64,000 nt of DNA from Liolophura sinensis (lineage: Eukaryota > Mollusca > Polyplacophora > Chitonida > Chitonidae): NCBI RefSeq assembly GCF_032854445.1, contig NC_088295.1:56277249-56341248 (forward strand), in the 5' to 3' direction. The notes under the pieces were generated by a model that worked only from the letters and a program-made list of their open reading frames with translations, had not been told where the DNA came from and searched no databases. Position 1 is the first letter of the stretch. The number at the start of each line of letters is the position of its first letter. A program made the translations under genes and the position numbers. This document shows positions 2,345-56,741 of this stretch, piece by piece.

Positions 2345-2879
2345 TCAAGCGTCCAGATCTTGTTTTGCGCGTGTGTTAGCCCTGTTCAGAACATCATAAG
2401 GATTAGCCTCGGTCTCAGTCCTGGCAGGAACTGCCCTGCCTCGATGCAACTGATTATACGTCATGTCGACGTCAACATTTCCCGTGACAGCGCCAATAAC
2501 GTTATCAGAACTGCTCTCACCGTAAGAGTGTCTGACCACGTGATCGTAATCTCCATGCACTTTAAAATGTGCAGCTTCCCCTTGTACTCGGTCGTAGTCG
2601 CCATGGTGATTTGTTCCTGCGGCGGACCCAACCGAGAATGCGGCGTCTCCTGAAGTGTTGGCCGCTCTTCCGGTTTTGTTCACCTTGGAGTACAAGTCGC
2701 TGACATTCGTCTCTGCAGCACGATTCCAGGGTGTGCCATTGTCGTCTCTCTCAAGCTGGTACAGCGAGTATCGGGAGTTAATGTTGTCGTAACCAGCGTT
2801 GGGTCGGCTGACGATCTGTGCCTCCGTGACGTCATCATCACGGTTTTCTGTTTGAAGAATGCGAGGCTTCTCTGCGGAC
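2345..2879 (-). CDS. Cytoplasmic tail exon of copy 1, multi-tyrosine
   Basis: About 177 residues after the WKRR stop-transfer sequence; the acceptor is gtttttgtcag. Tyrosine motifs in order: YDNI (also Y-x-N, a Grb2-type site), YSLYQL, YSKV, YDRV, YDHV, YNQL, YDVL. Six fit Y-x-x-hydrophobic, usable by SH2 domains or endocytic adaptors. Spacings do not make a strict ITAM, and residues at -2 do not make strict ITIMs. No kinase or TIR domain is visible. The ends at the same stop codon are shared by copies 2 (24073-24607) and 3 (56207-56741). Confidence 0.78.
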
Positions 2880-5800: not shown

Positions 5801-8800
5801 AATGAAGTAAAAGAAATATGAATGGCGGCCCATGCGTGGATGTTGGCACCATCCTGATCGCATCTAACGCGGATCTTGATTGGCCGGTACATGTAGTCTC
5901 GTTTAGACCGTTTATGGCACTTTAGCCTTTCCTACACGCTAGCTATAAACATGACACGATGTATCTTCAGTTTGCTGACCTGTTAAGACAGGCGTGGTGA
6001 CGAGAAAACTATCAGTGAATGATCTTTCATTCGCTTCACTCACTGTCTTTCAAACCTGTAAAAACCTGACCTAGCCCAATGCATAATTCTGGCTTTTGTG
6101 TTTCACGACAAAGTCTATTAATGTCAGTGAAAATGTAAAAGTGAAAAGTCGTTACCACATTCCCGGACAACCGGAGATAATGTAATTTCTCACCAAAAGT
6201 TGTACTTATGTTATAAATTAGCCATTTGTGGTGCCTAAATTATCATGCATATGTTCTGTTATAATTATACACTATATTTATCTCTTACAATGACCCATTA
6301 TCTTGATTATGTGCGAATTAGTAATCAGGCCAGGAAGTAGGCTGTTTGTGAATACCCTTTTTTATTTCGGGAGAACAAACAAGGTTGGTGTCGAACAACG
6401 CGGCATTATGTGTAAACATTTACGTGTAAACGTTAGTGTATGTCGGAAAACCCTACGCAGATCATGGTCGGATCCTACACACATCATACGTGGATCCTAC
6501 GCCCATCATATGCGAATGGTACACCCATCTTGACTGTATGATCGAACAGTACTGTACATCTCAGTAGCCCAAAGTTCTTATATTACGACAAACGTGATAT
6601 TTGATAATCCGAAAATGGAGAGATGAAAAGGTTTTAGACTCTCCAGACACAGGTTCTCCAGATGGTACATCTTATCTGGACCTACATTTGTACAAAGACC
6701 AGAAGGGTTTCCTCTCTCGCAGACTTTACGACAACAGGGATAATTTCAATTTTGATATTGTAAATTATCCTTACTTGGACAGCAATATGCCGAAAGGTCC
6801 TGCATGTGGCGTGTACACATCTTGCCTAGAAGCATTTGTCAGATCTTGAGTGTTGTGTGAGGATTTCAATCAACTTTACAAGTTATAACTGCAAAAACTA
6901 GTATATCACGGTTATTAAATTAAACGCCTTCACTTCAAGTTTCTTAAGTTTTACAATACATTTCTCTTGTACGTAAATACAGATAGAGCGTCCAGAATCT
7001 CTGACACTGTGCTTCATGATTGTGTCTAATTCCGCTTAACCGGAGAATGAATACTCATCGTGCTGAATCAAATCACCGCGTTGCAATCAGGGCGCAACTG
7101 AGATACATATCTTGTTATCGACAACTGATATTCTTGCATGGTACACGATTTGAATACTGATTTCACTCAGTCGCCTAGAACATACCTTGCGTCTTTCCTA
7201 CTTTATTGAAAACTGTTGGCTGCTTCTCTTTGTATGATTTCGTCCTATTTTCGTACTTTATATAATTTCTTGGGAACTAGCCATGCGACTACTGACCCGG
7301 AACACCCCTATGAGTTGACGGCTGGTATACGATTATCTGTTTCGACGCATAGATTACAATGGTAAAACACGTTTTCAAATAGTTCTACTGAACTTCAAAA
7401 GTAAAAACAGTCAAAACTATTTTTGTTTAAACATTTTAGTCATAGGGACAAAATTTACCTAAGGGGCACTCGCCATTAAAAAGGTCATTTGCCGATAACA
7501 TACACGAGAAATAACTTGGAATGCTGTGGGAGACACCATTTCCTTCAAACGAGAGCGAAAACAGAAAAAAACGTGTCTGTAGTGGTTTTGAGATAACGGA
7601 ATATCGGAATCAACAACGCCGAATTAATTAGTTGGGAGTGTCAGATGTTTATTTCGTGCACCCTACGTCGATAAAGTATTCTTGGACAACCACTCAGATA
7701 AAACAATACAGCGCAGTACATGCCCCGTGGAAATATGTTCCTATCGCTCACTGATTATCAGAGTTCCCTGACGATGCAAAAACAGCCCCGCTCACCAGAG
7801 CAGCTGTGCACTACCCGAGCCGTAAAACTCAACACTGAGATCTGCCCGGTCCGAAATTTGACTCGAAACCAGCAAGAGCGGAACAACAAAAATAACCCAA
7901 CAAACTAAAACCGTGAAGACCCGTCACATATGAAATTGAAATTAACATCACTGCACTTTTAAACCTAATTTTTCTCTGAATGGTACCACAGGAGGTTTGT
8001 AAAGTACTAGTTTTAAAGCATTTACATGAATATTTGGAACAATGTTGCTGACAGGAGATTGAATTTCATTGATTATATGTGATCATTTGTCAACTATCAC
8101 AATGTCGTCCCTACTCCATAGTTTAACTCTCCATGCTGTAGGCCTTTGTATTGCAGCTGAAAATTATCTATTCGTATGTATTCAAAATAACTCAGCGAAA
8201 CTGTTAATTCTTTAGTGTCAACAGAATTTAATTGCTTGCTGAAAATACTTACCGGAAGAAGTGCATGTGTATGTGATCGATCTCACGCTGCTGAATGTGG
8301 ATATGTGACCGAGACGTACACACGGGTCAGCTACTAGTCTCGGACTGGAGATATGAAGATCACACTGGCCTAGGCCAGTACAATTTTGCTGTAACTCATG
8401 GCGGTCATCGTTTGTATTTCTAACCCAGCTACATCGGCTTGTGTTACCACGGCAACATCGGTCATCCACAGGGGCTGATATAAGACGAGGACAAAGTTGG
8501 TCGTTTGGATCCCATTGGTAAAACTTGACCTCTAATATACAGATCTGAGCCCCCTCGTCACACTCTAATTTGTTGTGTGTTTGACTGAAAACTGATGATC
8601 CGTGACAGGCCTCGGAGATAATGACTGAAAAATATAAACAAGAATTGTATATCAACATGAAAGTGTAAAAATGTGTGATTCTACACACACAAAAAAGAAA
8701 GGAACAAATCATGCAGGAAGAACAGAACAGTCTGTATAGCCTGTGTGGGTCAGATGGAAGCACCTTAATCTAGCTCATTAGTCAAACAGTTGTATCGCAC

Positions 8801-9866
8801 CAGTGGAAACACCTCCACGTGTATGTGTTGAAAATCGGGTGAGTCGGGGGAGGAGGGTGGGGTGGGGTGGTGTGTTGTAGGGGAGCCCAATAATATATGA
8901 GTGAAATATTTTTAGTACGGCATTAAAAAATAAATTGTACAGCACAGATATTGGTGTTATTACACCACACGGCAATATGTACGACATTAACTGCTGGTGT
9001 ATTATTTCATACCCTGACCATATAATGCTGGCAGCCGTCGTTTACGCGAAACATTATTAAGTGCGGCGTAAAACACCCATAAATACATATCGTTACACAA
9101 CATGGTGTAACAGGTTCGTCATGCGCACTGATGAAGGGCGGTGTTTATCTATGAGCCCTGTCCCATACACGTTATGGTCATCAGTGGAATGTTTTTCAGA
9201 ACCACAATTAAACAACTACTTAAATATACTACTTAAGAAAGCTCTGTGTTTTTTTGTTGTTTTTTTGTTGTTGTTGTTGTTGTTTCCTTTTTTTTGTTTG
9301 TTTGTTTTTTTTTGGCGCGATTCTTCAGTCACGTAAGCTTGTATTTGGTTTGGTAACGTCTACACAGTAGACATAAATTTACGTCAGACTTGGCCGGCCC
9401 ATTTATGATCAGCGTAAGATCCTGTACATATTTATCACCATTCAGAGAAAATTCTATTGATTTGATTGGTTGAAATGCCAAACATTCAAGATCGAATATG
9501 AAAGGGTAGATCAGTTTTTATATACCCCTGCAATCAAAGCGTCAGGCTCGGATGTATCCCCAGAATCAAGGCGAAACGCGTAGATGTAAAATGTAAACAA
9601 AAAGGGAGACAACTTTGAACAAACTTCGTCCGTTAATATTTTCATCTGCTTCGCCTGGGAAAAATATTATCGACATCAGCCAAATATCTACGCGTAAACC
9701 CCCGGAAGGCCGTCATATAACTAATAATATATGCACATGTATATTGTGACACCCACCTTCTAAGACACTTACCTTCACTATCTACGAAACATACTTGCAG
9801 TCCAGCTGTCAGAATTGTCAGGAAGATTGGCATATACATGGACGGTTGTCCTCTAATAAGACACAT
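2345..9866 (-). CDS. SUEL-lectin-like transmembrane receptor, copy 1 (six exons)
   Basis: Predicted single-pass surface receptor of about 427 residues. Exons on the minus strand, 5' to 3': 9866-9773 (signal peptide), 8624-8253 (lectin-like domain), 5751-5668 (Ser/Thr stalk), 4869-4759 (Thr-rich stalk), 3511-3424 (transmembrane, ending WKRR), 2879-2345 (cytoplasmic tail and stop). Junctions follow GT-AG and phases run 1-1-1-1-2 without a break, except that the fourth exon has GC instead of GT at its donor and a weaker GAG acceptor. That exon is phase 1-1, so skipping it would keep frame. The start at 9866 is preferred over an in-frame ATG at 9890 because the distal ATG is GTG in unit 3. The lectin exon has 11 Cys, an N-glycosylation site in NTSRC and a DPC motif, but not the usual YGR sugar-contact motif, so ligand binding is open. 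A possible polyadenylation signal lies at 1916-1921. Exon structure is inferred from conservation between three copies, not transcripts. Confidence 0.8.
4370..4690 (-). mobile_element. Diverged SINE-like repeat (unit 1)
   Basis: Left end has the tttgattgttgtaaaatgcc tail-type sequence, followed by the accggagggcccgggataaac block shared with other molluscan dispersed repeats. Orthologues lie at about 26,025-26,330 and 57,835-58,145. It sits in the intron before the transmembrane exon. Confidence 0.5.
6601..6849 (+). mobile_element. Retroelement reverse-transcriptase C-terminal fragment (unit 1)
   Basis: Open frame with SYLDLHLYKDQKG, LYDNRDNFNFDIVNYPYLD and GPACGVYTS, a pattern typical of the region after the catalytic domain in molluscan and amphioxus retroelement polyproteins (LYDKRDDFNF.IVN.PFL). 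No catalytic motif or upstream part is present, so it is a dead fragment. It lies in the intron between the lectin and stalk exons of copy 1, opposite in strand. Confidence 0.65.
8253..8624 (-). CDS. Lectin-like exon of copy 1 (SUEL/rhamnose-binding-lectin type)
   Basis: Acceptor ...tttttcag, donor G|gtaagt, phase 1 to 1, 372 bp. Seen in order: ACHG, LECDE, QICI, DRCC, NTSRCSWVR, NCT, QCDL, ADPC, SVRSITYTC. The LxC..G..I opening, the xCxL..DPC block and the closing hydrophobic-Y-x-C strand follow the SUEL domain. The YGR motif of sugar-binding family members is replaced by FYQW. Two sequons (NTS, NCT) are kept in all three copies. Confidence 0.78.
9005..9095 (+). repeat. SINE 3'-domain fragment (unit 1)
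   Basis: Reads gctggcagccgtcgtttacg then aagtgcggcgtaaaacaccc and ataaatac, the 3' end of a SINE with its 5' part lost. Copies lie at 31,197-31,258 and 61,388-61,450. It is in the first intron of the lectin receptor gene, antisense to it. Confidence 0.6.
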
Positions 9867-11384
9867 CTTGAAGTTTTCACATCTGTTCACCCCGAGGAAA
9901 GATACAAGTCTTTGGAATGAACGTAAACGGCGAATGTATACGTATTAGCTAGTAATCAGGACGACTGGCTGAACACCTGCGTAATCAAAAAAAAAAAAAA
10001 AAACACAGACAGAGTTGTACATCAAGAAGGGTTTGTCATCAGCCTATTTTCGTCAGAAATATGATCACAGGTGCCTCGTAAGACAACAGAAGAAAACTCA
10101 GCTAAATGTGCCTCCACCCTCCACCCTCCACCCTCTGGTATATCACGGGCGACTCTGTGTGCTTGCAGAACGTGGTCCCTGTGACAAATCCCGTCCCCCT
10201 CACTGATCTGTTACTACTGCTTTTCGGGAAGCAGAGCTTAATAAAGAGTCCAGCATGTCAATGCGGCTAAATGCTAGAACACCCACGTCTTTCATGTACA
10301 CAAACTCGCATATGTATGTAAGCCGGATGGGCCCAGGCTGTCTTTCCTATACACACTTTCTCCAAACCAGGAAGTTCGACATCTAAGCGACCCTACGAAA
10401 TTTAGTCAAGAGTCATGCAGCCCAGGAGGACAACGCGATATTCTGAAAACTTTCTATAGACATCCCAGCCACATTTAGTCAGGAATATCGTAGTCTGAAT
10501 CTGGCATTGTCAACTGAATTTTGTGTCCTCTCCCAAACCCCGTTTACTCCATCATTTTTCCGCCAAATCTAATTGAGTTTCGACCAAATTTCATATAGTG
10601 GATTGGTTGTCGGCTTAATCATGACTTAAAAGTGAACATAAAGTCATCCACTATATATACATAAAAAACATGATATAGGACAGTTATCCGAGAAAAATAT
10701 GTAAAAAGTTCTACGAAGTTTTGAAAGCCGAAAAGATGAAGTTCAGCACTGCAAATATGACACTGATGGACAATTCATTCTGAGCAGCCATGCTGCAGGT
10801 GCCCTTATGGACTGTGCCAATCTCTAGCGCTGAAAGCGTCACGCGATAAATGGCTGTCACGTCAAAAACCCCATTAGCTCTCTATTGTCGATTTTTAGGT
10901 TGGGTTGATCGTTAAACTGATGCATTTTGGACCACATATATATGAGCAGCTAAACGAGAACGTCACAATATCTACATGTTGGGCAGGATATTACAGTAAC
11001 TTGTAAGGATAATCGGGCAAGAAAACCGCCTCGGGAGAGTCACTGCTTGAGGAAAAATATTTTGACTTTGCATTATCTTTCCACACAAAGTTATATTTAT
11101 TACGAAAATATCCCCCCAAATTAAAAATTCAGGTAAATTCCCTGAAATCGATACAGCCAGCTAGGTCAAATACTTACACCCATGTAGGACGAGGACGAGC
11201 AGGACGACTAAAACACGACGCCTGTGTCCACGAACATCGCTCTGACCGAGCAATAGAACATTTCCGGAATACTACTTTATCAACTTATTGAGCTTTAGTG
11301 CCTGACTTTATGTTCACTTTAAGAAGGGTATATTCTCTGTGCGAAATAAATACCCTTTTTGCGTGTTAGTTTGTTTCTTTTGTT

Positions 11385-11715
11385 GTTAATAACGTCATGC
11401 ACACTGAAGAATTTTCCTTTTATATGATGGTGGTCAATTTTATGCGATGAGGAAACTACAGTGTCCGGTGTAAACCACCGACCTTTGGCAAGTTGCTGAC
11501 GTACTATCCAACATGTTACCCACAGATGTGCTCACCATACTGGTTGACGACAAGTGTTCTTCAAGAAAGTTTGGTGCCACTAAGACCCAAAGTACAGTGA
11601 GAGAGGGGGAAATCAGTAAATTCCATGCTCCAACTATCAGTCTCGTTTTCTTCCTCCGCAACTGTTTTATTACGAAGTGCAAGTTAGTGACGGACATGTG
11701 GTGTACGCTCACATA
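11385..11715. repeat. Dispersed-repeat-like segment (unit 1)
   Basis: Contains the gtgtaaaccaccgacctttgg block of molluscan SINE-like repeats. It is duplicated at about 33,850-34,195. Open frames over it on both strands are by-products. Confidence 0.45.
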
Positions 11716-12615
11716 CACCATGTGCTTTCAGCGAAGATTACACTATATGCAAACGGCACAATGCGTGCTGCAGGCTTTGTGACCAAAGCCCAAAAATTGT
11801 GAGAGCAGGCAAATCTAATCATTCCCTGCTCAAAGCTTCGTAATTCAAGCGCCTTTAACAATTAGTGCTATAAAAAACATGAAAACATGGTTAAAAGCGC
11901 GACATTTAGAGGAATGACTCCTTCTGGAACCAGATCGACACTGAATGTCATCTAAATCTCGAAATGTACACTACAACTCCAACTTTACATCATTTTTAAC
12001 TTTCCATTAACCTGTTTTCTAATCTGAAAAAAGTAAGACATTCTGGCGAAATTTGGAGGACAGCGCCAGATTCGAACGTGATTCTGTCGTGATTTCGTGT
12101 CCCCTGAGATGAATTCGTGATCTTATTTCAGAGCACGCCATTCCTGTACATCTCGTTTTATTCATCAAATTACGCCGTAAAATTTGGGTTCATCTTGCCA
12201 GCTAGAATATACATGTATAATGTCCCAGTTTCTAACTCGAGCTCAAATTTGGAAAATCAAATCATTTATTTTGAGGAGAATGCAACATTTGGACGACCTG
12301 AAGACGAAATGCGATATTCTGACAAGATTAAGTGGAGAGTCGATGTGTTCTGCGAGATATGGTCGAGAATTGGTCGAGGATTGGTTGAGGTTTGGTGGAA
12401 AAGTGAAAAGATCAGGAGATCAAGTGAAAAGAGATATTCCATTGAATGTCGTTCGGATTTGATCAGAATGAGATGTTGAGGTTCTCATCTCGACCGAATC
12501 TTTTTTAAATTTCGTAGTGTCGTTTGAACATCACGGTTTTTGGTTTAAAGCAAATTTGCTCAGGAAGTCAAACATGAAAGTGACCCCATGGAGCGGCTGT
12601 GACAAGAACAAATCT

Positions 12616-19600: not shown

Positions 19601-19685
19601 TATGATAGATTTTAAAATTCATCGCCTTTTGGAGAGCTGTGCAACTCAGTCATTGTTTTATTTGCTCTTTTTTAAACTCATCAGA

Positions 19686-19961
19686 GTTTTCAGAAAGACG
19701 CCCCTAGCGTTTCGCCAAATTGCAATTCCGGCCTGACGAATCCACTATTCCACGTTGATCTCCAGACTCGACAAGATCAGCTCGGGGGCCTGGAAGACAG
19801 AACGGAAATGTTGACTTATAATACTGCGGGTAGTTATCTGACGCCGATTTTCAGGCCGACTCGTCAGCCAGATTCTCAGTTTACAGGAATGGATCACGGG
19901 GCCGAACTCTTTTAACACTGGTGAAGAGGATGATGGGTATTGTACGCCACTCTCAGACCAG
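19686..19961 (+). pseudogene. Orphan tail-exon fragment of the plus-strand receptor (unit 1)
   Basis: Homologous to about 51,189-51,477. The splice acceptor and first codons are deleted. A 5-bp deletion after GAACTC creates an in-frame TAA. The end, with the NPLY and YSQM motifs, stop and 3' region, is gone: the sequence jumps from gaccag straight to agtgttaacc, which in unit 2 lies near 51,958. The five upstream exons are absent from unit 1, so this is a clear relic. Confidence 0.82.
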
Positions 19962-24072: not shown

Positions 24073-24607
24073 TCAAGCGTCCAGATCTTGTTTTGCCCGT
24101 GTGTTAGCCCTGCTCAGAACATCATAAGGATTAGCCTCGGTCTCAGTCCTGGCAGGAACTGCCCTGCCTCGATGCAACTGATTATACGTCATGTCGACGT
24201 CAGCATTTCCCGTGACACCGCCAATAACGTCATCAGAACTGCTCTCACCGTAAGAGTGTCTGACCACGTGATCGTAATCTCCATGCACTTTGAAATGTGC
24301 AGCTTCCCCTTGTACTCGGTCGTAGTCGCCATGGTGATTTGTTCTTGCGGCGGATCCAACCGAAAATGCGGCGTCTCCTGAAGTGTTGGCCGCTCTTCCG
24401 GTTTTGTTCACCTTGGAGTACAAGTCGCTGACATTCGTCTCTGCAGCACGATTCCAGGGTGTACCATTGTCGTCTCTCTCAAGCTGGTACAGCGAGTATC
24501 GGGAGTTAATGTTGTCGTAACCAGCGTTGGGTCGGCTGACGATCTGTGCCTCCGTGACGTCATCATCACGGTTTTCTGTTTGAAGAATGGGAGGCTTCTG
24601 TGCGGAC
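24073..24607 (-). CDS. Cytoplasmic tail exon of copy 2, multi-tyrosine
   Basis: Compared with copy 1 there are about 12 nucleotide differences in 535 bp: 7 amino-acid changing and 5 silent. All seven tyrosine motifs (YDNI through YDVL) are unchanged. This is much closer to neutral or constrained change than the lectin exon of the same gene. Confidence 0.78.
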
Positions 24608-27600
24608 CTGACAAAAACAAACAAACGAAATCCATGGATGACTTTGGCATTTAAAAGCCTACAAACTCTTAGTTTTTCAGTGGCAAGGTGATATTGTCCA
24701 AGGAAGACGATGCGCGTATTCAATACCGACCTTGAGGAGAGACGGTAAATTCTTCCGCTCCAATTTTTCACTTGGCATTGGTGACAAAAAGTGGTCGAGG
24801 TTGCTCGTGTCATTGTCTTAGTTCGTGGAACACAGCTTGTCTTCATCCAATATAACCAACTTTCTACGTCAAGGATGGGAAAGTTCGTCAGTAACTTGCC
24901 TAAGGTCGTTGGGGAAAAATGGCATTATAATTATGACGAATTCTTGTGTAAGGCCGTAGTTTGCAAATTTTACTTTCCACTATAGTCCTTCAGACACCAC
25001 AAAAAGTTTTCAGCACAGGGGAATATAGGAGAAATTCACTAAATGAAGACAAATGTTATAACTAGAATGTTTTGACCTGCATCAAAAATTGATTATCGTT
25101 CCAATTTTGATGTTACGAAAATCTGGAGGAAAAATGGAATTACCGTCTTTTCCACAGGAACACGAGTAGAACCACGATCAGAACACACACCACCAGTCCT
25201 CCGATAACCCCGCCCACAATAGCACCGGTATCTGGGGAGAAAGAGAAACTTGTAGGGCAAACTTGACCAAACTTCTGACAATCACTCCTACAGTCTTTGG
25301 GTAATATACGAGTCTTTACAACCGTACCTGAGAAGAAATCTGTTCAAGATAACGAGAATTCTACTATGGATAATACCAGGTTTTGTAAACATTTCCACAT
25401 TACATCTAATATCACATGTGGCTATAAACATGGGTATACAGTTAGACACAGTTTTGCACGTTTTGGAAGAGATCTGTCAAAATCAGACTGTTTAGGAAAG
25501 AGTCACCACTGAACTATATGAAATGCAATGATTCGTGGCAAATGAGACTTGTACAGTAGAACTGTAAACACTGTGTCCTCTGTCTAGTCAATAGAGTGCA
25601 GAACTTAAGGCTTTCCTGAAATTTTATACTGTATACCCTTCTTATTTTTACCAAATTTAAAAAATCAAACCTTACCCTTCACATTCATATTGTTGGCTTA
25701 AGGATATAAGGATAGGAAATAAAAGAGCGCTCTGGGGCCGGTTGTTCAAAAGATTATTCAAAGTTAAGCCAATTAACATGTCATTTGTACATTTTCTCGC
25801 TCTCTGCTTGTGAGGCCTTAGTGACAATAAGTCATCGACGAAGCTCGTGTGGTCGTATATGCAGTCTAACATTCGTTGAAGCTCACTTGTCTTCCATCAA
25901 TATATATAATTCCTCCACCCATAAAACTGACTTTAAACAATCATGAGAGTGAAAAAGTCTTGAGTATTACGCTAGCCAATAATGAAATAATGAAATAAAA
26001 AAATAGATGGGTTTGGGCTTATTCTTTTGATTGCTGTTAAACGTCATACTCAAATATGTTTTGTTATAGGATGGCCGCCCGTTTAACTGGTGGAAGAAAC
26101 CGGAGGGCCTGGGATAAACCAACAACCTTTGGCTAGGTACTAACAAACTATCCATCATGTGACCTATACAGACAGGCATATTGCATACCATAGTGATAGG
26201 AAACAAGTGGCCCTCAACAAGTCCTTGCCATCAAAACCCAACGATTCCTGATAGCGGGTGAATCGGCAAATTCCGTGTCCAGGAATGAGCTTGGGTTTAA
26301 CCGCTGTTGGTAACTGTTTTATTACCAACAGATTGATCTATTATTACACATTTTGCGACCTGCATGGTACTGCCCTTATTCTACTTGGTCTTATTAGTAC
26401 CGTTTAATTCCCCTTTTAAAGGAAAGATATCACGAGTTGTATTTTCCAAAGCGAGGCTGTTATTTGGCGACGTAGTCTCGTATGACGTCACGGTGGGTTG
26501 GTATGTCGTCATGGTCTCGTATGACGTCACGGTGGGTTGGTATGTCGTCGTGGTTTTGTATGGCGCCACGGTGGGTTGGTATGTCGTCGTGGTCTCGTAT
26601 GGCGCCACGGTGGGTTGGTATATCGTCGTGGTCTTGTATGGCGTCACGGGTGGTTGGTATGTCGTCGTGGTCTTGTATGACGTCACGGTGGGTTGGTGTT
26701 TCGTGACTGAAAAACAAAAGAAAGTTGTCACTGCACCTTTACGGGGCCTTTGGTGCCAAACTATCTTGAAATTTATTTATTATACTACTGATGTAAGCCT
26801 GAAATATTTTTAATGTGTTCAGTTTAGAAAATTATACGTTATATCGACGAATTTTACCCCCATCTTTGAGTAAGACAGGGGTAGTCTTGGAGTAAATTTA
26901 CATTGGTTGGCTGATATAGCTGTGTGTAATGCTTGTTAGAAATCAGATCTGCGCTATGATAGACATCCACTCAGATGGCATGTAATTTGTTTTAATTACA
27001 TTTATTTATTTATTCAACCATAATACTCAAGAGTTCAGTTTCATGGGTGCAGGAAACAGGAGCGGCTGTGCAAAACCACAGTTATTAAGTGACCAATCTT
27101 GAGTGATTGCTGTCACTGATAAAATAATTGGGCAAATTTGTTTTGAAAACTTATTTTAAAAGAACGATAACACTATATAACCTATATCAAACTGCTGTGC
27201 AGGTAATAGTTTAATAGGGAACTTAATTAATGTGGTTCCAAGCTGTGCATGTAGTCTGTGGGGGAAAAACAGTAACATCGTATACTGCATACAAGAAACA
27301 AATGTGAATGGACCTTGTAGCATTGGTATATATACCGTATTTATCATAGCGCTTCGAAAAAGTTTTATAGAGCCCTATATGTGGAACTGAGCAGTATGTA
27401 GGAATAACTGCATTAGATCATCTGCAATTGCTGCACGAAACTCAGTTTTAAAAACTTGTAAAGCCCCTTTCTTTCTTTTTTGTTGAACTATTATGAAGGC
27501 CATACAATATGTTTACCCCAAATAAACTAAATAAATTTTAGTTCTCCACACAACTGACAAAATGCGAAATTTCAAGGCCAGAAGCAGAAATCTAACGTAC

Positions 27601-30600
27601 CGTTTGTCGTTATTGAAGACGATTCTTCTGATCCTCCTGTCGAGCTTGCTGAGATTGTTGTTGTTGCAAGAGGAGGACAAGTCCCTGACAATAATAACAG
27701 TCGATAAATTATACAAAAATGAAATTAAAGATGCTAGGAAGTTTACTAGATTATGAGAAAAAATATACCAAGCACCTTAAACTCTCATTGGAAACGAACT
27801 ACCACGTAGTTAAGCGAAGAATGCAACCAAGATGCTGAGTTATAGCTTAACGCCTGTCATCCGCCCATCTTGCACGCATCTTGATCGGCTGTGAGGCGAA
27901 CCCTACGCGGATCATAGGGCCATGATGGGTGGCCCATACCCGGATGTTGGCACCATCCCGATAGCATCTTACGCTGATCTTGATTGGCCGGTACATGTAG
28001 TCTCGTTTAGACCGTTTATGGCACTTTAGCTTTTGCCTACACGGTAGCTATAAACATGGCATGATATATGTTCAGTTTGCTTACCTGGAAAGGTAGACGT
28101 GGTGAAGAGAATACTATAACTGAATGATCTTTCATTCGCTTTATTCTCTCTCATTCAAACCAGTAAAAAGGTGATCTAGCCCAATGCATGACGTCTAACT
28201 TTTTCTTTCTCGTCTCTCAACGCTGTTTATTAGTGTCAGTGGAAATGTAAAGTCGTTAACGCATTCCCGGACAACCGGAGATAATGGAAGTTCTCACCAA
28301 AAGCTGTACTAATATTATAAATTAGGCACCCGTGGTGCCTCAATTATCATTTATAAGTTCTGTTATATCTATACACTATATTTAGCTCTTAAACTGACTG
28401 ATTATCTAGATTATGTGCGAATTAGTAACCACGCTGGGAGCTAGACCGTTAGTGAATACCCTTTTTTATTTCCAGAGAACAAATAAGGTTGGTGTCGAAC
28501 AGTCCGGCATTATGTGTAAATGTTATGTGTAAACGTTAGTGTATGTCGTAAAACTCTACTCAGATCATGGTCGGATCCTATACCCATCATACGCGGATCC
28601 TACTCCCATCAAATGCGAATGGTACACCCATCTTGACTGTATAATCGAGCAGTACTGTACATCTCAGTAGCCCAAAGTTCTTATATTACGACAAACGTGA
28701 TATTTGATAATCCGAAAATGGAGAGAGGAAAAGGTTTTAGACTCTCCAGACACAGATTCTCCAGATGGTACATCTTACCTGGACCTACATTTGTACAAAG
28801 ACCAGAAGGGTTTCCTCTCTCGCAGACTTTACGATAAGAGGGATTTCAATTTTGATATTGTAAATTACCCTTACTTGGACAGCAATATACCGAAAGGTCC
28901 TGCCTGTGGCGTGTACACATCTCGCCTTGAAGCATTTGTCAGATCTTGAGTGTAGTGTGAGGATTTCAATCAACTTCACAAGTTATAACTGCAAAAACTA
29001 GTATATCACGGTTATTACATTAAACGCCTTCTCTTCAAGTTTCTTAAGTTTTACAATACAATTCTCTTGTACGTAAATACAGATAGAGCGTCCAGAATCC
29101 CTGGCACTCTACTTCATGATTGTGTCTAATTTCGCTTAACCGGAATCTAGAGAACAAATACTCATCGTGCTGAATTAAATCACCGCGTTGCAATCAGGGC
29201 GCAACTGAGATACATATTTTGTTATCGACAACTGATATTCTTGCATGGTACACGATTTGAATACTGATTTCACTCAGTCGCCTAAAACATACCTTGCATC
29301 TTTCCTACTTCATTGAAAACTGTTGACTGCTTCTCTTTGTATGATTCCGTCCTATTTTCGTACTTTATATAATTTCTTGGGAATTAGCCATGCGACTACT
29401 GACCCGGAACACCCGTATGAGTTGACGGCTGGTATACGAATGTCTGTTTCGACGCATAGATTACAATGGTAAAACATGTTTTCAAATCGTTCTACTGAAC
29501 TTCAAAAGTAAAAATAGTCAAAACTAGTTTTGTATAAACATTTTAGTCATAGGGCCAAAATTACCTAAGGGGCACTCGCCATTAAGAAGGTCATTTGCCG
29601 ATGATATACACGAGAAATAACTCGGAATGCTCTGGGAGACACCATTTCCTTCAAACGAGAGCGAAAACAGAAAAAAACGTGCCTGTAGTGGTTTTGAGAT
29701 AAGATATTTTGTTGTTTCTATGGGTAAATAAATTGATATATGGTATATTTAATGACCGGAAAGTTCGTATTCCCCGGATATTAATTTCGGAATCAGCAAC
29801 GCCGAATTAATTAGTTCGGAGTGTCAGATGTTTATTTCGTGCACCCTACGTCGATAAAGTATTCTTGGACAACCACTCAGATAAAACAATACAGCGCAGT
29901 ACATGCCCCGTGGATATATGTTCCTATCGCTCACTGATTATCAGAGTTCCCTGGCGATGCAAAAACAGCCCCGCTCACCAGAGCAGCTGTGCACTACCCG
30001 AGCCGTAAATCTCAGCATTGAGATCTGCCCGGTCCGAAATTTGACTCGAAACCAGCAAGAGCGGAACAAGGAAAATAACCCAATAAACTAAAACCGTGAA
30101 GACCCGTCACATATAAAATTGAAAATAACATCACTACACTTTATCTCTGAATGGTACGATAGGAGGTTTGTTAAGTACTATTTTTAAAGCATTTACATGA
30201 ATATTTGGAACAATTGCTGACAAGAGATTGAATTTCATTGATTATATGTGATCATTTGTCAACAATCACAATGTCGTCCCTACTTCATAGTTTAACTCTC
30301 CATGCTGTAGGCCTTTGTATTGCAGCTGAAAATTATCTATTCGTATGTATTCAAAATAACTCAGCGAAACTGTTAATTCTTTATTGTCAAGAGAATTTAA
30401 GTGCTTGCTGAAAATACTTACCGGAAGAAGTGCATGTGTATGTGATCGATCTCACGCTGCTGACTGTGGATATGTCACCGGGATGTACACACGGGTCAGC
30501 TACTAGTTTCGAACTGGAGGAATGAAGATCACACTGCCTTTGGCCAGTACAATTTTCCTGTAACTTATGGCGGTCATCGTTTGTATTTCTAACCCAGCTA

Positions 30601-32252
30601 CATCGGCTTGTGTTACCACGGCAACATCGGTCAGGCACAGGGGCTGATATCTCATGAGGACAAAGTTGGTCGTTTGGATTCCACTGGTAAAACTTGACCT
30701 CTAATATACAGATCTGAGTCCCCTCGTCACACTCTAATTTGTTGTGTGTTTGACTGAAAAGTGATGATCCGTGACAGGCGTCGGAGATACTTACTGACAA
30801 ATATAAATATGAATTGTATATAAACATTAAAGTGTAAAAATGTGTGATTCTACACGCACAAAATAGAAAGGAACAAATCATGCAGGAAGAACAGAACAGT
30901 CTGTATAGCCTGTGTGGGTCAGACAGGATCACCTTAATCTATCTCATTAATCAAACAGTTGTATCGCACCAGTGGAAACACCTCCACGTGTATGTGTTCC
31001 AAACCGGGTGAGTTGGGGTAGGAGGGTGGGGTGGGGTGGTGCGTTGTGGGGGAGTCCAATAATATATGAGTGAAATATTTTTAGTACGGCATTAAAAAAT
31101 AAAGTCTATAGCACATATATTGGTGTTATTACACCACACGGCAATATGTACTACATTAACTGCTGGTGTATTATTTCATACCCTGACCATATAATGCTGG
31201 CAGCCGTCGTTTAAGCGAAACATTGTTAAGTGCGGCGTAAAACACCCATAAATACATATCTTTACACAGCATGGCATAACAGTTTCGTCATGCGCACTGA
31301 CGAAGGGCGGTGTTTACCTCTGAGCCCTGTCCCATACACGTTATGGCCATCAGTGGAATGTTTTTCAGAACCAAAATTAAACAACTACTTAAATATACTA
31401 CTTAGCAAAGCTCTCTGTTATTTTTTTGTTTGTTTGTTTTCTTGGCGCGATTCTTCAGTCGCGTAAGCTTGTATTTCATTTCCTTTAGCTATTTACAAAG
31501 TCTTTTATGACATGAGTTTTGTCACTACTTTTAGTCTTAGTCTTAAAATTGAACAGGAAAGAGATGCCCAGGGGAATACATACATGTGAAATATTGCTAT
31601 ATTTTGTATCCTTTTTTAGAATTCGTTTCATGTTAGCGTTCTGTATTTAGTGTTGCACGTCATATATACGTTTGCAAAGAGTGCCCTACTTAAATTCTAA
31701 AACAATGTACCTGTATGCACACGGAATAGGTTTGGTAACGTCTACACAGTACATATGCACTTACCTACGACTTGGCCGGTCCATATACGATCAGCGTAAA
31801 ATACTGTACATATTTATCACCATTCAGAGAAAATTCTATTGATTTGATTGGTTGAAATGCCAAACATTCAAGACCGAATATGAAAGGGTAGATCAGTTTT
31901 CATATACCCCTGCAATCAACGCGTCAGGCTCGGATGTATCCTTAGAATCAAGGCGAAACGCGCAGATGTAAAATGTAAACAAAAAGGGAGACAACTTTGA
32001 ACAAACTTCGTCCGTTAATATTTTCATCGACATCGCCTCGGAAAAACATTATCGACATCAGCCAAATATCTACCCGTAAACCCCCGAAAGGCCGTCATAT
32101 AACAAATAATATATCCACATGTATGTATATTGTGACACCCACCTTCTAAGACACTTACCTTCACTATCTACGGAACATACTGGCAGTCCAGCTGTCAGAA
32201 TTGTCAGGAAGATTGACATATACATGGACAGTTGTCCTCTAACAAGACACAT
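24073..32252 (-). CDS. SUEL-lectin-like transmembrane receptor, copy 2 (six exons, long stalk)
   Basis: Paralogue with all splice sites canonical. Exons 5' to 3': 32252-32159 (signal peptide), 30793-30422 (lectin-like), 27684-27601 (Ser/Thr stalk), 26706-26401 (Thr-rich repeat stalk), 25231-25144 (transmembrane), 24607-24073 (tail and stop); about 492 residues. The repeat exon carries six 13-residue units (consensus TTTYQPTVTSYET) where copies 1 and 3 have one. It is exactly 195 bp longer, so frame is kept. The lectin domain is about 85% identical in protein to copy 1, with changes concentrated in the loop-like second half. The tail differs at only 7 of about 177 residues. A second signal exon at 35854-35947 could replace the first exon. 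The AATAAA present downstream of copies 1 and 3 is lost here with a deletion. Probable membrane recognition receptor signalling through tail tyrosines; the ligand is unknown. Confidence 0.83.
26025..26330 (-). mobile_element. Diverged SINE-like repeat (unit 2)
   Basis: Orthologue of 4370-4690, in the same intron position of copy 2. Confidence 0.5.
26465..26706 (-). repeat. 39-bp in-frame coding minisatellite in the copy 2 stalk
   Basis: Six head-to-tail units of about 39 bp encode a 13-residue Thr/Tyr/Pro repeat such as TTTYQPTVTSYET. Copies 1 (4825-4869) and 3 (58276-58320) have one unit. The extra 195 bp equals five units. Thr density suggests an O-glycosylated, extended stalk, so unit number would set how far the lectin domain stands off the membrane. 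Other frames are also open across the array (for example on the plus strand), a by-product of the stop-free unit. Confidence 0.88.
28704..28949 (+). mobile_element. Retroelement reverse-transcriptase C-terminal fragment (unit 2)
   Basis: Same insertion as 6601-6849, one codon shorter (LYDKRDFNFDIVN), so it predates the split of units 1 and 2. Unit 3 jumps from the sequence left of it (about 60,055) to the sequence right of it (about 60,130) and lacks it. Confidence 0.65.
30422..30793 (-). CDS. Lectin-like exon of copy 2
   Basis: Same length, phase and cysteine pattern as 8253-8624. I count 26 nucleotide differences from copy 1. Two are silent (one Gln and one Val codon) and the other 24 change 19 residues. 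They include Arg-Leu to His-Glu before the ISAP stretch, Leu-Gly to Gln-Arg before QCDL, and Arg-Leu-Gly-His to His-Pro-Gly-Asp after DPC. The about 150 bp of intron next to it differ at only 4 positions. Confidence 0.78.
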
Positions 32253-38228: not shown

Positions 38229-38300
38229 GTAATTTCCATACTTTCTAGTCTCTCTTCAGGACTCTTCTGAGTCCGCTCGTCACACTCTAATTTGTTACTG
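38229..38300 (-). pseudogene. Relic of a fourth lectin exon
   Basis: On the minus strand a tttcag-type site is followed by codons for NKLECDERTQ, matching NKLECDEGTQ of the copy 2 lectin exon. Similarity then breaks off, and a stop follows after about 18 unrelated residues. Flanking bases (acacacaaaagtg and the tract near 38,390) also resemble the sequence upstream of the lectin exons. It marks a former receptor copy between copy 2 and the plus-strand gene. Confidence 0.6.
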
Positions 38301-38799
38301 AAAGTAGATAAACAATGGAATAAATACAGGTATAATGCTAGACACACAAAAGTGAAAAATAAATATGATGGAATAATTAAAAACAGGATAGTCAGGCTGC
38401 TTCCTTCATTGGTTAAGTACTTTTCAAAGATAGTGTCCAACAGAAGGTTCTATGCGATGTTAAACCCTAGCAAAAAGACAAACAATCCGGCTGGAAGGCA
38501 TGAACTCTTTTTAGGAATAACAGCGACAGCAAACTTGAGTGCAATGCTCTATAATTTACATATGAAGTAAGCGTATTTAATTCATCGATATTTTACACAT
38601 TACTAAAGTACATTTTTACCTGTATGGTAGGAGCCATATTTCATGAATGCATGATATGTGGGGTATATGTCATACAAAAGACTACATCATAGAGGCTAAA
38701 ACAAAAGCAATGATGGCACTGTAATATTTGGCCAATGGTCACACATATTATCGATCAAATCTGGCCTCGTCTCAGTTTACATTAGACCTTATCAGTTTT

Positions 38800-45500: not shown

Positions 45501-48500
45501 AATTTTTAAAATACATCTTTTATAATGAGTACATAAAATTACATGAGATGCCTGTAAACCGACTCAAAATGGATACCTTATGGCAGATGTGAGGTGATGC
45601 TGTGAATCGTAGCAAGCTATAACTTGTATGTAATACTGAAATATTTCAGCCTCACAATTTGAGTATAGTGGTTGATTAAACTTATATTTAACTTATATGT
45701 CACACTATATGAATTCCCGTCAACAAATATTTAACATCATGTTTGTTAGACTGTCGGATATTTTTTGTCGGTAAATGAAGACAACGGGGCTTTTGTCCGC
45801 CGGGGATTTTGTCCCGGATTCATGACGGAACTGTTTCCTGGATTTATGTTTAGGTTTACGACAGCGATCAGGTTTGTTCTTGTGTCAGTGTCAGTTTTTT
45901 GTCTGTGCACTGTCAGGTTTGTGCAAGTATCAATGCCAGGTTTCTGCCTGTGTCAATGCCAGGTTTGTGTCTGTGCCAATGCCAGTTTTGTGCCGGTGCC
46001 AATGCCAGGTTTGTTCGTGTGTCAATGCCAGGTTTGTGTCTGTATCAGTGTCAGGTTTTTGTCTGTATCAGTGTCAGGTTTGTGTTTGTGTCAATGCCAG
46101 GTTTGTGCCTGTGTTTTTGCCAGTTTTTTGCCTCTGTCAATGTCAGGTTTGTGCCTGTGTTAATGTCAGGTTTGTGCCTGTTTTAATGTCAGGTTTGTTC
46201 CTGTGCAAATATCTGGTTTGTGCCAGAGTCAATGTCAGTTTTGTGCCAGTGTCAATGTCAGGTTTTTACCTGTGTCAATGTCAGGTTTGTGCCTATGTCA
46301 ATGCATGGTTTGTGCCTGTTTTAATGTCAGGTTTGTTCCTGTGCAAATATCTGGTTTGTGCCAGTGTCAATGCCAGTTTTGTGCCAGTGTCAATGTCAGG
46401 TTTGTGCCTGTGTCAATGCCAGGTTTGTGCCTGTGTCAATGCTAGGTTTCTTCCTGTGTCAATGTCAGGCTTGTGCCTGTGTAAATGCTAGGTTTGTGCC
46501 TGTGTCACTGTCAGGTTTGTGCCAGTGTCAATGCCAGGTTTGTGTCTATGTCAATTCCAGTTTTGTGACTGTGTCAATGCGAGGTTTGTGTCTGTGTCAA
46601 TGCCAGTTCTGTGACTGTGTCAATGTCAGGCTTGTGTCTGTGTCAGTGTCAGGCTTGCGACTGTGTCAATGTAAGGTTTCTGGCAGGTTTGTGACTGTGT
46701 CAATGCCAGGTTTGTGTCTGTGTTATTCACTCGTCTGTGTCTATGTCAATGTTAGGTTTGCTCCTGTATTAACATCAGATTTGTGCCTGTATTAATGTCA
46801 GGTTTGTGCCTGTGTCAATGCCAGTTTTTTGCCCGTGCGAATGTCAGGTTTGTGTCTGTGTCAGTGTCAGGTTTGTGCCTTTGTGAATGTCAGGTTTGTG
46901 CCTGCATCACAGTCAGGTTTATGGGAGAAAGTTTGCAGTCTGACAAACGGGAACCCAGTTGGGCAGGTGGCCTTAGTCATTACAGCCGACTTTTTATAGA
47001 ACTCATTTGACGAGTAGCTTACATCCGTCACACTGGGGACAGGAAATGCTATTGATTACGACGTAAAGTACCAAATAAATACACATATAAATGAATGATG
47101 GAATTAACTAAGTAATAGTTCAAACTTGGTAAAAGAACAATTATGTGGTGTCTGTTTTTGTTGCAGTAAACTGTTCCTCTCATACGGCGCATGGACAGAA
47201 ACCAGGTAAACTTCTTTCATATGTAGCTACCTCAGAGAGTGAATATTCTATGCAGTCTTTATTCTATACGTGGATTTCCCATGGACGTTGCCTGCCTCCC
47301 TTCCACCATGATGCTGACCGGCGCCATATAAGTGAAACTTTCTTGAATACGGCGTAATACTTCTATCAAATGATTGAAAAAAATTAATAACCCTAATTAC
47401 CACTATATCGACCTGTAAATGCCTACCTCTTGCACCCCTTGGCCTTCCACTGTTAACGGTGAACATGAATCTTGACCAACATTGGAGTAAAGTGTAAGTA
47501 AAATTTCTGATCTTTCTAAGTGCTATCAAAACAAAACTGGGTAAATTTAATCATTTTTTTAGATGAAAAAGCGACGGCAAGAACATCTGTGATAGAGTTT
47601 CAAATGAGAACTAAAACGGCAACACTTCCGGTGTTACCGGAAGTTACATCATCTTCCACGCTCACACTGACTCAGTCCTCAGGTGTAAGCACCACACTAA
47701 TTTCTGCATCTTGTGAGAAAAGTACAGGTAAGTTCTGTTTTACTAAGTCTTAAAGCTAATGTGGTCATCAGTATTTAGAAATCTAGCCGTGAGTTTTATT
47801 TATTTATTTGATTAAGTTTTAACGTAATACTCAAGCGTTTCCCCGTTCCTCGAGACAAGTTAGTTTTAGTGTAGGAGGAAAGCATGTAGCCATGCATACA
47901 GTAAACCACCTGCTAGTGACAAAAGTCACGTGATCTCTCGTTTACTTTATATAAGAACAATTAAGCGATCTGTGAACGCACGCGGCCGCTTATTGTTACC
48001 AATAAGGGTTCTCTCTTTGAAATTTGAAACCATATACATGTGGAATACTGTATATGTATAAAGAACAACAAGGTGGGAGTATTCTGGATGGCCTTCGCTC
48101 CTTCAGACTTCAAACAAAATAAAGCAGTTTCTATAATACATTCAGTCGTGGGATTACCTGTAATCGTCTACACAAGCATTAGCCGGCACATTCTTAGTTC
48201 CTCGTTGCATAACACAGACATTTCCTAAAACCATCTTTCCTCTGTATTCGAAGCTAGTTGTTGTAACATCAATTTTCCATGTGCTGCTTGCGGGTAGACA
48301 GAGGAAAGGTAATTCTGTAAAATTTCAGTCTTACCTGAGGAAGAGCTGATAAAATTTTGACTACAAAATACACCATATGATAAACTGACTGACTGTTTTA
48401 ATAATGTATATGCTTGGAGATGAATACAAGAATAGATTATTTCAGCTCTAAAAAGAAATGCCGTTCTTTATTCCTGCACATCATTCTAAATCGTCTGGGG

Positions 48501-51500
48501 GAGGGAGGTACTCTTTGGCCGAGTTGTTAGCGTGCTAGCGCAGCAGAATACCCAGGAGACTTTTAACAATACGATTGCAGTGAGTTCAAATCCTGCCAGA
48601 AGCTGGCCTCTTCTCCTGTTGTGGGTTTTCCTCAGGCTCTGCCCAGTTTTCCTCCCACCACAACGCTGAGTACCGCATAAAACTCCAACCAGAAAAAATA
48701 AATGAACAAAGAGTTAATAGATGGGATTTAATTAACACATTGTGTGTTATGAAAAGTTAACCTCAAACAACAAACGCCCACCTCAGCTCTTCCCCTCATA
48801 GTTGTTTCACGGTATTCACAATGTACATCACTGACCAACAGGATGATTTTTAACAAATTCTGATTTAGATGTGGCTGTAACAGTAATTACAGCGGGTGTG
48901 GTCACTTGTGTTGCCTTGGTTACTTGCCTTGTGTCGGTGTATATATGGAAGAGAAGGTAAGCAAACGTATTTTGTAAATCTTTTATCGGCCTTTCTCCTT
49001 AATCCGCTATCGGAATTTTGTGAAAAGAATGTGGTACAATGGATTTGAACCCTAATACGGAGACACTATGATGGCATTAATACAAATTCATTTTCCTTTG
49101 CGTATGGGATGACTTACAGGATTCCGCCATGCACGTATTTACAGCACTGGAAATTATTAAAGAAACCAGAAAAAATAGTTAATTTCTACAAAAATAGTGT
49201 AGTTAAATTGCTGTGATATTTCTGAAAGTTGACATACCTAGAATTTGCATATCCCAGAATAAATGAAAAAGTTATCATTGAGTTTGAACTATGGATATAT
49301 TCTGGGCCCGAGTACTGTCTGTTTTTTTTTTTTGGACAGAAGTGTATCAAGCCTTAGTCTCAAGTGAGTATCAACACTGATGTCAACGTCAATTCTGCAC
49401 ATATAACAGAAACGTTTTTTTTTTTTAACTTATTCGGCTCTGTAAGAGAAATGTACAATTTAGAGTATTTTATTGTGTTATTTTCATATATGTGTGAAAC
49501 TCTGACTGAAATATACATGCTATTTTCATTTCACTGACTCCATATATACCCCCTTGATTTCAATAATCCGGACATAAAGAAAGCACTTTAACAACTATTA
49601 GCACGCATTAACAAAACATGGAATAAATTCAAGAAACACGTTAATTTGAATTGAATGGATGAATTATGGCCACATGTTTATTACTGAAAATTACATCAAA
49701 CGACTGACGAGACCCTCACAAGGACGCTGAACATCAGCCTTACCATCACAGGATGAATCAGCCTCTATTTCATACAGCTTATTTAGTTCACCCCACGCAA
49801 AAACAAAGCGGGGATGTCAAATGCTCGCTCCTTGAGACATTCAAAGGTAGCCCATATCTCTTGCCAAATACACAGACGATACACCAAATGTCCGCTCCTT
49901 GATAAATTTGAAGGTAGACATGTCTCTGGTGAAATACATAGATGATACGTCAAACACGCGTTCCTTGAGAAATTCAATGGGTAGTCCATATCTCTAGAGA
50001 AATACATAGATGATACGCAATAAAGTCTCACTTGCACCTCCACGGCCTTGCCGCACTGTGACTGCATGTATTAAACACAGCTCGCGGGCAAGAACCACGC
50101 TACTCCTCAGAGACTGTGACGAGTGCCAGCTAAGTTGATATATGAAACAAATATTCACACAGCAACAGTACTTTGCTAAGAAAGAATTCAAAATACAAAG
50201 CATATGCGGCAATTTACTTCCCAAGGTCACCAATATGATGAAAGTACCAATAAAACTGTGGCAAATTTGTGCCCGAGAAGAAGTGTAGACAATCTAAAAT
50301 CCGCTTAACGCTAGTAACGGACCAAAGCTATACAGGAATGCTTTCCCTGATAATTTACTTATATATGTTATAAATACAATGACAATTAATATAAGATAAA
50401 CGGAACAATAATAACCTTAGTGCCGGCTTTATCACTGGGTGTGATGGAAGGGAGTTAAAATCAGAACGTTGATTAATGAACTAGCTCTTTACATCGGCCA
50501 GACTGTGAAAGGAAAGACCTCACGGCAGGGAGAGACAGCTGGACCAAGGGGGATAACTCTAACTACCCGTTTCACAATCACCACAGAGCTGGATACATCA
50601 CCCAAGCCGATACACCACTAAAAATTCCTCCTATGTAATAATACTGTTTACCCTGTATAAATGATCAACAAGTTGAATAACATGGTCGCTGTGTGTTTAT
50701 TGCAAATGTTCCATATAGACAAACATGAGGGAGAAATGTTATTTGGTAGCTCTTTCAGACTAACCGTGCAAGATACAGTGGTGCATCCTGTGTCAGACTT
50801 GGCAAAAGTCCTCTGCGTTTATTCTTGTGGGCGTGGCTAACTATCCCATGAGCGAGTTTATGTCTCCCCTGTCGATCGGTTATTTTGTCTGAAACATCGT
50901 TTCAGTCCTTTTGCATTATTATAGCTGTAAGGCTCAGTTTATAGACACAAATAGAAAGGTATGGAAATTTCATTAGGTGTTGAAGTACCTTATTTAAGTT
51001 GAATAACTTATTTAATTAAACAATAGAGAAAAATATGTTTATATCTTATCAACTTAAACAGATGAAAGTAACAATATATATGCTACATTTTAAAAATTCA
51101 TCGCCTTTTGGAGAGCTGTACAACTCAGTCATTGTTTTATTTGCTATTTTTTTAAACTTAGCAGACCAACACAAATGTCACGACGAAGTTTTCGGAAAGA
51201 CGCCCCTAGCGTTTTGCCAAATAGCAATTCTGGCCTGACGAATCCACTATTCCACGTTGATCTCCAGACTCGACAAGATCAGCCCGAGGGCCTGGAAGAC
51301 AGAACGGAAATGTTGACTTATGATACTGCGAGTAGTTATCTGACGCCGATTTTCAGGCCGACTCGTCAGCCAGATTCTCAGTTTACAGGAATGGATCACG
51401 GGGCCGAACTCAGGTCTTTTAACACTGGTGAAGAGGATGATGGGTATTGTACGCCACTCTCCGACCAGAATCCGCTGTACGAGGTTCTCGGGGAACGAGA

Positions 51501-56206: not shown

Positions 56207-56741
56207 TCAAGCGTCCAGATCTTGTTTTGCCCGTGTGTTAGCCCTGTTCAGAACATCATAAGGATTAGCCTCGGTCTCAGTCCTGGCTGGAACTGCCCTG
56301 CCTCGATGCAACTGATTATACGTCATGTCGACGTCAGCATTTCCCGTGACAGCGCCAATAACGTCATTAGAACTGCTCTCACCGTAAGAATGTCTGACCA
56401 CGTGATCGTAATCTCCATGCACTTTAAAATGTGCAGCTTCCCCTTGTACTCGGTCGTAGTCGCCATGGTGATTTGTTCTTGCGGCGGATCCAACCGAGAA
56501 TGCGGCGTCTCCTGAAGTGTTGGCCGCTCTTCCGGTTTTGTTCACCTTGGAGTACAAGTCGCTGACATTCGTCTCTGCAGCACGATTCCAGGGTGTGCCA
56601 TTGTCGTCTCTCTCAAGCTGGTACAGCGAGTATCGGGAGTTAATGTTGTCGTAACCAGCGTTGGGTCGGCTGACGATCTGTGCCTCCGTGACGTCATCAT
56701 CACGGTTGTCTGTTTGAGGAATAGGGGGCTTCTGTGCGGAC
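56207..56741 (-). CDS. Cytoplasmic tail exon of copy 3, multi-tyrosine
   Basis: Nearly identical to copies 1 and 2 outside the first dozen residues, with every tyrosine motif kept. The contrast with the diverged lectin exon of the same gene points to homogenisation of this end of the unit, or to strong constraint. Confidence 0.78.

Follow-up and report, generated by a model that had tools for sequence, protein, structure and literature searches.

A tandem family of putative single-pass receptors in the chiton Liolophura sinensis, with a conserved tail and a diverging head exon that has lost constraint

Why should one exon of a duplicated gene accumulate almost nothing but amino acid replacements? 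The question is raised by a 372-bp exon in a 64,000-nucleotide stretch of contig NC_088295.1 of the chiton Liolophura sinensis (hereafter the window; an assembly first named L. japonica has been reassigned to L. sinensis by a published correction, PMC12441733). A preliminary description compared two copies of this exon, copy 1 (8253–8624) and copy 2 (30422–30793), and took it for a lectin exon under diversifying selection. The exon proves to be the second of six in a minus-strand gene present three times in tandem. We favor, with moderate confidence, a reading in which it encodes the putative ligand-binding head of a single-pass surface receptor, the three genes are intact, exchange between copies keeps the tails alike while the heads diverge, and the heads have lost constraint, some of their replacements probably having been favored. 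The firm parts of this reading, as far as DNA can establish them, are the gene structure with its open frames, the relatives of head and tail, a slow tail beside a fast head, and a difference in age between the head and the tail of copy 3.

The three genes span 2345–9866 (copy 1), 24073–32252 (copy 2) and 56207–62412 (copy 3), all on the minus strand, and in each gene model the frame is open from start to stop codon, giving 427, 492 and 427 residues, respectively. The predicted protein consists, in order, of a signal peptide, a cysteine-rich head resembling the rhamnose-binding lectin (RBL)/SUEL domain, a linker, a Thr/Pro-rich stalk, one membrane span and a tail. In copy 2, these parts correspond to exon 1 (32159–32252; start codon and signal peptide, the latter assigned by eye), exon 2 (30422–30793; head), exon 3 (27601–27684; linker), exon 4 (26401–26706; stalk, its 306 bp including about six 39-bp repeats), exon 5 (25144–25231; membrane span) and exon 6 (24073–24607; cytoplasmic tail with six YxxI/L/V motifs and the stop codon). 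Exon 2 of copies 1 and 2 is preceded by AG and followed by GT.

The counts that first drew attention to the exon were borne out. Copies 1 and 2 differ at 26 of 372 bases and 19 of 124 residues, exactly as claimed, and the estimate of about 24 replacement and 2 silent changes is close to the 23:3 obtained by Nei-Gojobori counting, with two purely silent codons. Four codons carry more than one change, including the triple change CTT/GAG that had been cited as Leu to Glu, and the ratio of about 7 changing to 5 silent differences reported for the 535-bp tail exons was obtained again. Nei-Gojobori analysis (NG86) of exon 2 gave rates of nonsynonymous (dN) and synonymous (dS) substitution of 0.083 and 0.038, a ratio (omega) of 2.2, and a count-based Fisher P of 0.32. 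Likelihood analysis (GY94) gave an omega of 3.53 (P=0.055 against omega=1), and two further codon-frequency models gave 3.44 (P=0.058) and 3.30 (P=0.065). Parametric bootstrapping with 300 neutral replicates yielded P=0.05 (one-sided 0.037), while neutral mutation with the local transition/transversion ratio produces three or fewer silent changes among 26 with a borderline probability of P=0.053–0.060. When the four multiply changed codons were masked, omega was 2.6 (P=0.17). The point estimate exceeded 1 in each of these tests of exon 2; the formal dN/dS that had been proposed as a check on selection thus came out above 1 (2.2–3.5), but with only borderline significance.

The comparison of copies 1 and 2 was extended to other groups of exons. 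Omega was 4.7 for exons 1+2 (P=0.012, although this is one of five groupings tried and hence no clean test), 2.5 for exons 1–3 (P=0.044), 1.5 for exons 1–4 (P=0.22), 0.89 for exons 3+4 (P=0.82) and 0.41 for exons 5+6 (P=0.11). Replacement and silent changes stood at 23:3 in the head, compared with 14:9 in exons 3+4 (P=0.044); for exons 1+2 the ratio was 28:3, compared with 7:7 in exons 5+6 (P=0.005). A faster rate in copy 1 was considered and found unsupported (13 unique sites in exon 2 of copy 1, 6 in that of copy 2, P=0.17), and no significant asymmetry between the two copies was detected in five noncoding stretches or in the other exons.

Copy 3, whose head exon (60621–60992) belongs to an older lineage (dS 0.74–0.76 to copies 1 and 2), revealed how unusual the young heads are. 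In a three-copy model of exon 2, the young branches leading to copies 1 and 2 have an omega of 3.5 and the copy 3 branch one of 0.35, a description that beats a single omega of 0.54 (likelihood ratio (LR) 12.85, P=0.0003). Compared directly with copy 3, copies 1 and 2 have omegas of 0.43 (P=0.001) and 0.37 (P=0.0002), each of them below 1, and the replacement:silent ratio of the head is 23:3 between copies 1 and 2 against 64:37 between copies 1 and 3 (P=0.017). Since omega is below 1 in comparisons with copy 3 and the branches differ, the head has long been under constraint, and the comparison of the young copies shows no such constraint. Release from purifying constraint in the heads of copies 1 and 2 is therefore a firm result.

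Whether anything beyond release took place is a harder question. If the duplicated heads are partly redundant, they could drift without any favored change while the tail is still constrained, and we regard relaxation alone as a serious contender, its chances somewhat short of even. Fixing the young branches at omega 1 costs an LR of only 3.81 (P=0.051), and relaxation alone is also consistent with the weakening of the signal once exons 3 and 4 are added or multiply changed codons are dropped. It would further accommodate the odd splice sites of exon 4 in copy 1 and the nature of the replacements, which are no more radical than random: an excess of radical changes was rejected, those caused by single-base changes being if anything milder than chance (n=15; mean BLOSUM62 −0.07 against −0.60 expected, P=0.12). 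On the other hand, the point estimate is above 1 in each test of exon 2, all frames are open, all eleven cysteines of the head are kept, and the changes lean towards the equivalent of one particular loop (loop2, discussed below). Both relaxation and positive selection are tenable, and positive selection on the head is plausible but not proven. The original proposal of diversifying selection is thus supported in part, by omega values above 1, the branch contrast and the lean towards loop2, but not by rejection of omega=1 or by the contrast with the introns.

That contrast rested on about 150 bp of neighboring intron said to differ at 4 positions, from which it was concluded that the exon had diverged further than the neutral sequence next to it. 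The low-coordinate side (8103–8252) does differ at 4 of 150 positions, but the other side (8625–8774) differs at 12 of 150, above the exon rate, and as a general statement the conclusion fails: the aligned noncoding DNA of the 7600–9269 block differs at 69 of 1284 positions (5.4%) and the exon at 26 of 372 (7.0%; Fisher P=0.25). The exon's replacement sites alone (23/292) did not differ significantly from this block (P=0.13), and the exon rate exceeded that of the low side (25/639, P=0.037) but not that of the high side (44/645, P=0.90). Noncoding divergence of the two copies varies among six aligned blocks, the lowest value being 4.4% and the highest 12%, so no single noncoding patch is a fair yardstick.

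The spacing of the changes raises the possibility that multi-nucleotide mutation has inflated omega and that there is no signal of selection at all. Changes lying within 2 bp of one another are over-represented in exon 2 (8 against 3.4 expected, P=0.01; adjacent changes 4 against 1.8, P=0.09), four codons are multiply hit with the consequences of masking described above, and two of the four noncoding stretches examined also have more adjacent changes than expected (5818–7596, P=0.003; 9347–11925, P=0.012). Codon models that ignore multi-nucleotide changes can yield false positives, according to an excerpt from a paper on the subject (PMC6332903). We nevertheless consider this explanation unlikely: the block flanking the exon has no excess of adjacent changes (5 against 3.7 expected, P=0.30), omega is still above 1 after masking, and multi-nucleotide mutation by itself leaves the branch contrast unexplained. 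At the level of residues, a one-dimensional scan for clustering of the changed positions was not significant (P=0.32 with 20 residues, 0.06 with 35).

Comparison of the two ends of the gene exposed a composite history. In exon 2, copy 3 stands at a silent divergence of 0.76 from copy 1 and 0.74 from copy 2, whereas in exon 6 (56207–56741 in copy 3) the values are 0.05–0.06. Of silent sites, copies 1 and 3 differ at 37 of 78 in exon 2 but at 6 of 124 in exon 6 (P=6e-13); no such contrast separates the two exons when copies 1 and 2 are compared (3/80 against 5/124, P=1). In 350-bp windows, the identity of copies 1 and 3 is 88–98% across the tail and in the DNA downstream of the gene, 82–86% at exon 1 and 71% at exon 2, near which four windows could not be aligned. 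Read in this way, the genes are mosaics, with the head and tail of copy 3 differing in age. One history cannot yield both ages; therefore, after the heads parted, either copies exchanged tails or a head was replaced.

Since the head and tail of copy 3 are of different ages and the identity of copies 1 and 2 alternates along the gene between 72 and 98%, exchange does happen at this locus, and the preliminary description had itself named conversion with a diverged paralogue as an event that would overturn selection. Such a donor, lying outside the window, could have brought in blocks of differences, and the over-representation of changes within 2 bp would fit. Exchange is thus relevant here, yet it hardly yields 23:3: a donor constrained like the copy 1–3 pair should have brought about 64:37 (P=0.017). 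Moreover, at the 19 changed residues, the copy 1 state is absent from five other head sequences in 15 cases and the copy 2 state in 9, and the adjacent introns differ at similar rates, so that we judge conversion an improbable source of the pattern. Least credible of all is an assembly artefact in which two haplotypes of one gene were placed in a row and pass for copies 1 and 2, for although their silent divergence of about 4% in head and tail is within the range of a polymorphic marine invertebrate, their identity drops to 72–85% in places, the spacers of the units differ in length and content, and exon 4, with its six stalk repeats in copy 2, is much shorter in copies 1 and 3.

What does the diverging exon encode? 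A four-row whole-protein profile retrieved six proteins at E up to 1 (P0001–P0006), while a single-sequence search and a head-only profile each retrieved one. P0001 is the copy 3 tail; P0002 and P0006 match the head exons and P0003 and P0005 the tail exons, all four coming from a source labelled lgn; and P0004, annotated as 'mucin-2-like isoform X2', is an L. sinensis protein that has two heads, a stalk, a membrane span and a tyrosine-rich tail. The head of copy 2 matches the Pfam SUEL/RBL family PF02140 at E 0.0068 (17.2 bits, below the 31.4 cut-off), and two of four members match. At E 0.001, none of six window open reading frames (ORFs) matched Pfam; in NCBIfam, the head ORF had no match and P0004 had two weak ones. 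Searches of the PDB returned one weak Fab match for the single sequence, nothing for a four-row profile and, for a seven-row profile, only 5iaz 'beta-galactosidase 1' (E 0.67), a chain that may be a SUEL-like domain. Eleven cysteines are invariant across seven head sequences. Their order fits the eight conserved cysteines, paired in four disulphides, of RBL domains with three extra, and the C-x5-C pair (81, 87) is spaced as Cys96–Cys102 of latrophilin-1; other spacings differ. Membership of the head in the RBL/SUEL family is likely, although no match reaches the formal cut-off and the lectin label depends on this weak homology.

Sugar binding is a separate question. According to excerpts of the work on latrophilin-1, the glutamate directly after the first cysteine of its RBL domain is needed to bind rhamnose or galactose, conservative changes there reducing or abolishing binding, and receptor-attached RBL domains often lack the sugar-binding residues and may bind proteins (PMC2430599). 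In all seven heads, the residue after the first cysteine is histidine. The motifs YGR, DPC and KYL are characteristic of RBLs in an excerpted account (PMC10817417); YGR and KYL occur in none of the seven heads and DPC in two. A sugar-binding lectin was rejected as the default reading, given the absence of this glutamate, YGR and KYL from 7/7 heads. Sugar binding by the head is unlikely on these grounds, and because the critical glutamate is histidine throughout, a protein ligand is the likelier one; by analogy, the head may function as RBL domains attached to receptors do.

The sugar pocket of latrophilin-1 is formed mainly by loop2, as described in the same excerpts (PMC2430599). We assigned the equivalents of loop1 and loop2 in the head from the order of its cysteines, a mapping of our own in which several comparisons were made and P values are uncorrected. 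Changes between copies 1 and 2 affect 7 of 23 residues in the loop2 equivalent and 12 of 100 elsewhere (P=0.049), and changes between copies 2 and 3 affect 15 of 23 and 31 of 100 (P=0.004). No enrichment between copies 1 and 2 was found in the loop1 equivalent (4/23 against 15/100, P=0.75), and for both loops together P was 0.07. Nor were the changes significantly concentrated in alignment columns where copy 3 and P0002 disagree (11/19 against 39/104, P=0.13).

The tail, about 180 residues long, contains nine tyrosines, of which six belong to YxxI/L/V motifs, and the tails of the three window copies are 96–97% alike. Five of the six motifs are kept in both P0003 and P0005. In the scheme that we favor, the cysteine-rich head, with a diverged RBL/SUEL-like fold, would bind an extracellular ligand, more probably a protein than rhamnose or galactose; the Thr/Pro-rich stalk would hold it off the membrane; and the tail tyrosines, once phosphorylated, would recruit SH2-type proteins. 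Duplication and exchange between copies would keep the tails alike as the heads diverge, the heads of copies 1 and 2 would have lost the purifying constraint of the older branch, and some head replacements would probably, not provably, have been favored for changing ligand binding. A family of diversifying surface-recognition receptors is the best reading of these genes.

Several results weigh against it. For the pair of copies 1 and 2, omega=1 in exon 2 is not clearly rejected, the outcome being borderline, and the contrast of exon 2 with exon 6 alone falls short of significance (23:3 against 7:5, P=0.08). PF02140 misses copy 3, P0002 and P0004 and finds P0006 only at E 4.2, and P0004 instead matches HRM (E 0.0018, also below cut-off). 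A strict immunoreceptor tyrosine-based inhibitory motif (S/T/I/V/LxYxxI/L/V) has no match in any of the three tails, from which NPxY is absent too. Tyrosines are not significantly enriched among invariant tail columns (6/9 against 64/168 for other residues, P=0.16).

Known systems resemble these genes in part. EVA-1 is a single-pass protein. EVA-1, latrophilin and PKD1-like 2 share with the window genes an RBL-like domain on a membrane protein, often with sugar-binding residues missing and protein binding proposed, as excerpts of one study have it (PMC2430599). The window genes differ from these three in having eleven cysteines rather than eight, histidine for glutamate, a Thr/Pro-rich stalk, a tail with six YxxI/L/V motifs and a tandem arrangement, and they are without the seven membrane spans of latrophilin. 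With the soluble RBLs of eggs and haemolymph they have in common the cysteine order and the weak PF02140 match, but their heads lack YGR and KYL, carry DPC in only two of seven cases and are membrane-bound. P0004 is closer, with a head of the same family (40% identity over the match), a stalk, a membrane span and a tyrosine-rich tail; unlike the window genes, it has two heads, and its tail looks unrelated, with other motifs. The two heads of P0004 are nearly identical, which suggests a recent internal duplication.

A further parallel is offered by the vertebrate paired receptors Siglec-11 and Siglec-16, a pair of related membrane receptors whose genes undergo conversion with each other and whose binding-domain exon is under relaxed constraint, according to an excerpted report (PMC5701461). 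Their folds are immunoglobulin-like and, in that report, the converted part includes the binding-domain exon (PMC5701461), whereas in the chiton it is mainly the tail that is alike. Paired receptors combine like heads with activating and inhibitory tails; the three window tails are alike, and no activating/inhibitory pair was found among these copies. A more ambitious version of our reading, which we offer tentatively and think rather doubtful, is that chiton-specific, RBL-headed, tyrosine-tailed single-pass receptors evolve like vertebrate paired receptors, exchange fixing the signalling half while positive selection on the head exon, mainly in the ligand loop, makes new specificities for self/non-self, microbes or gametes. 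A variable head on a shared tyrosine tail is in any case a candidate for immune, gamete or self recognition, of which little was found for chitons among the open-licence PMC papers listed. No paper on these genes was found among those listed, which is not proof that none exists.

The window reveals a family whose head is omitted from the NCBI model of copy 3 and supplies an exon for tests of selection and ligand. That model, LOC135461687 of L. sinensis, is 237 residues long, begins at a methionine inside copy 3 exon 4, thus lacking signal peptide and head, and is 100% identical over the match to the tail part of copy 3. Copies 1 and 2 returned no separate record from a protein database clustered at 90% identity. 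The remaining exons of copy 3 are exon 1 (62319–62412), exon 3 (59483–59566), exon 4 (58210–58320; stalk) and exon 5 (57267–57354), the last with a match to Pfam TM_ErbB1 (E 2.2e-5, below cut-off) in keeping with a membrane span. Those of copy 1 are exon 1 (9773–9866), exon 3 (5668–5751), exon 4 (4759–4869; stalk), exon 5 (3424–3511; membrane span) and exon 6 (2345–2879; tail). Exon 4 is 306 bp long in copy 2 and 111 bp in copies 1 and 3; its splice sites are CAG/GT in copies 2 and 3 and an odd GAG acceptor and GC donor in copy 1, where it may be skipped without loss of the frame.

Three other features of the window were noted. A 31-bp fragment of the head exon occurs at 38267–38317 on the minus strand, agreeing with copy 2 at 30 of 31 positions and with copy 1 at 29 of 31; it lies directly after CTTTCAG with flanks unlike those of the exon and is either a relic or a short templated insertion. 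On the plus strand, a second, duplicated tail-like exon (51094–51543 and about 19615–19961) has tyrosine motifs such as NPLYEVL and no Pfam match, its left copy (about 19615–19961) matching in different frames. Between copies 2 and 3 lies an array of about 45 copies of a 23-bp tandem repeat (45868–46920), which has a strong AT skew and is open in more than one plus-strand frame.

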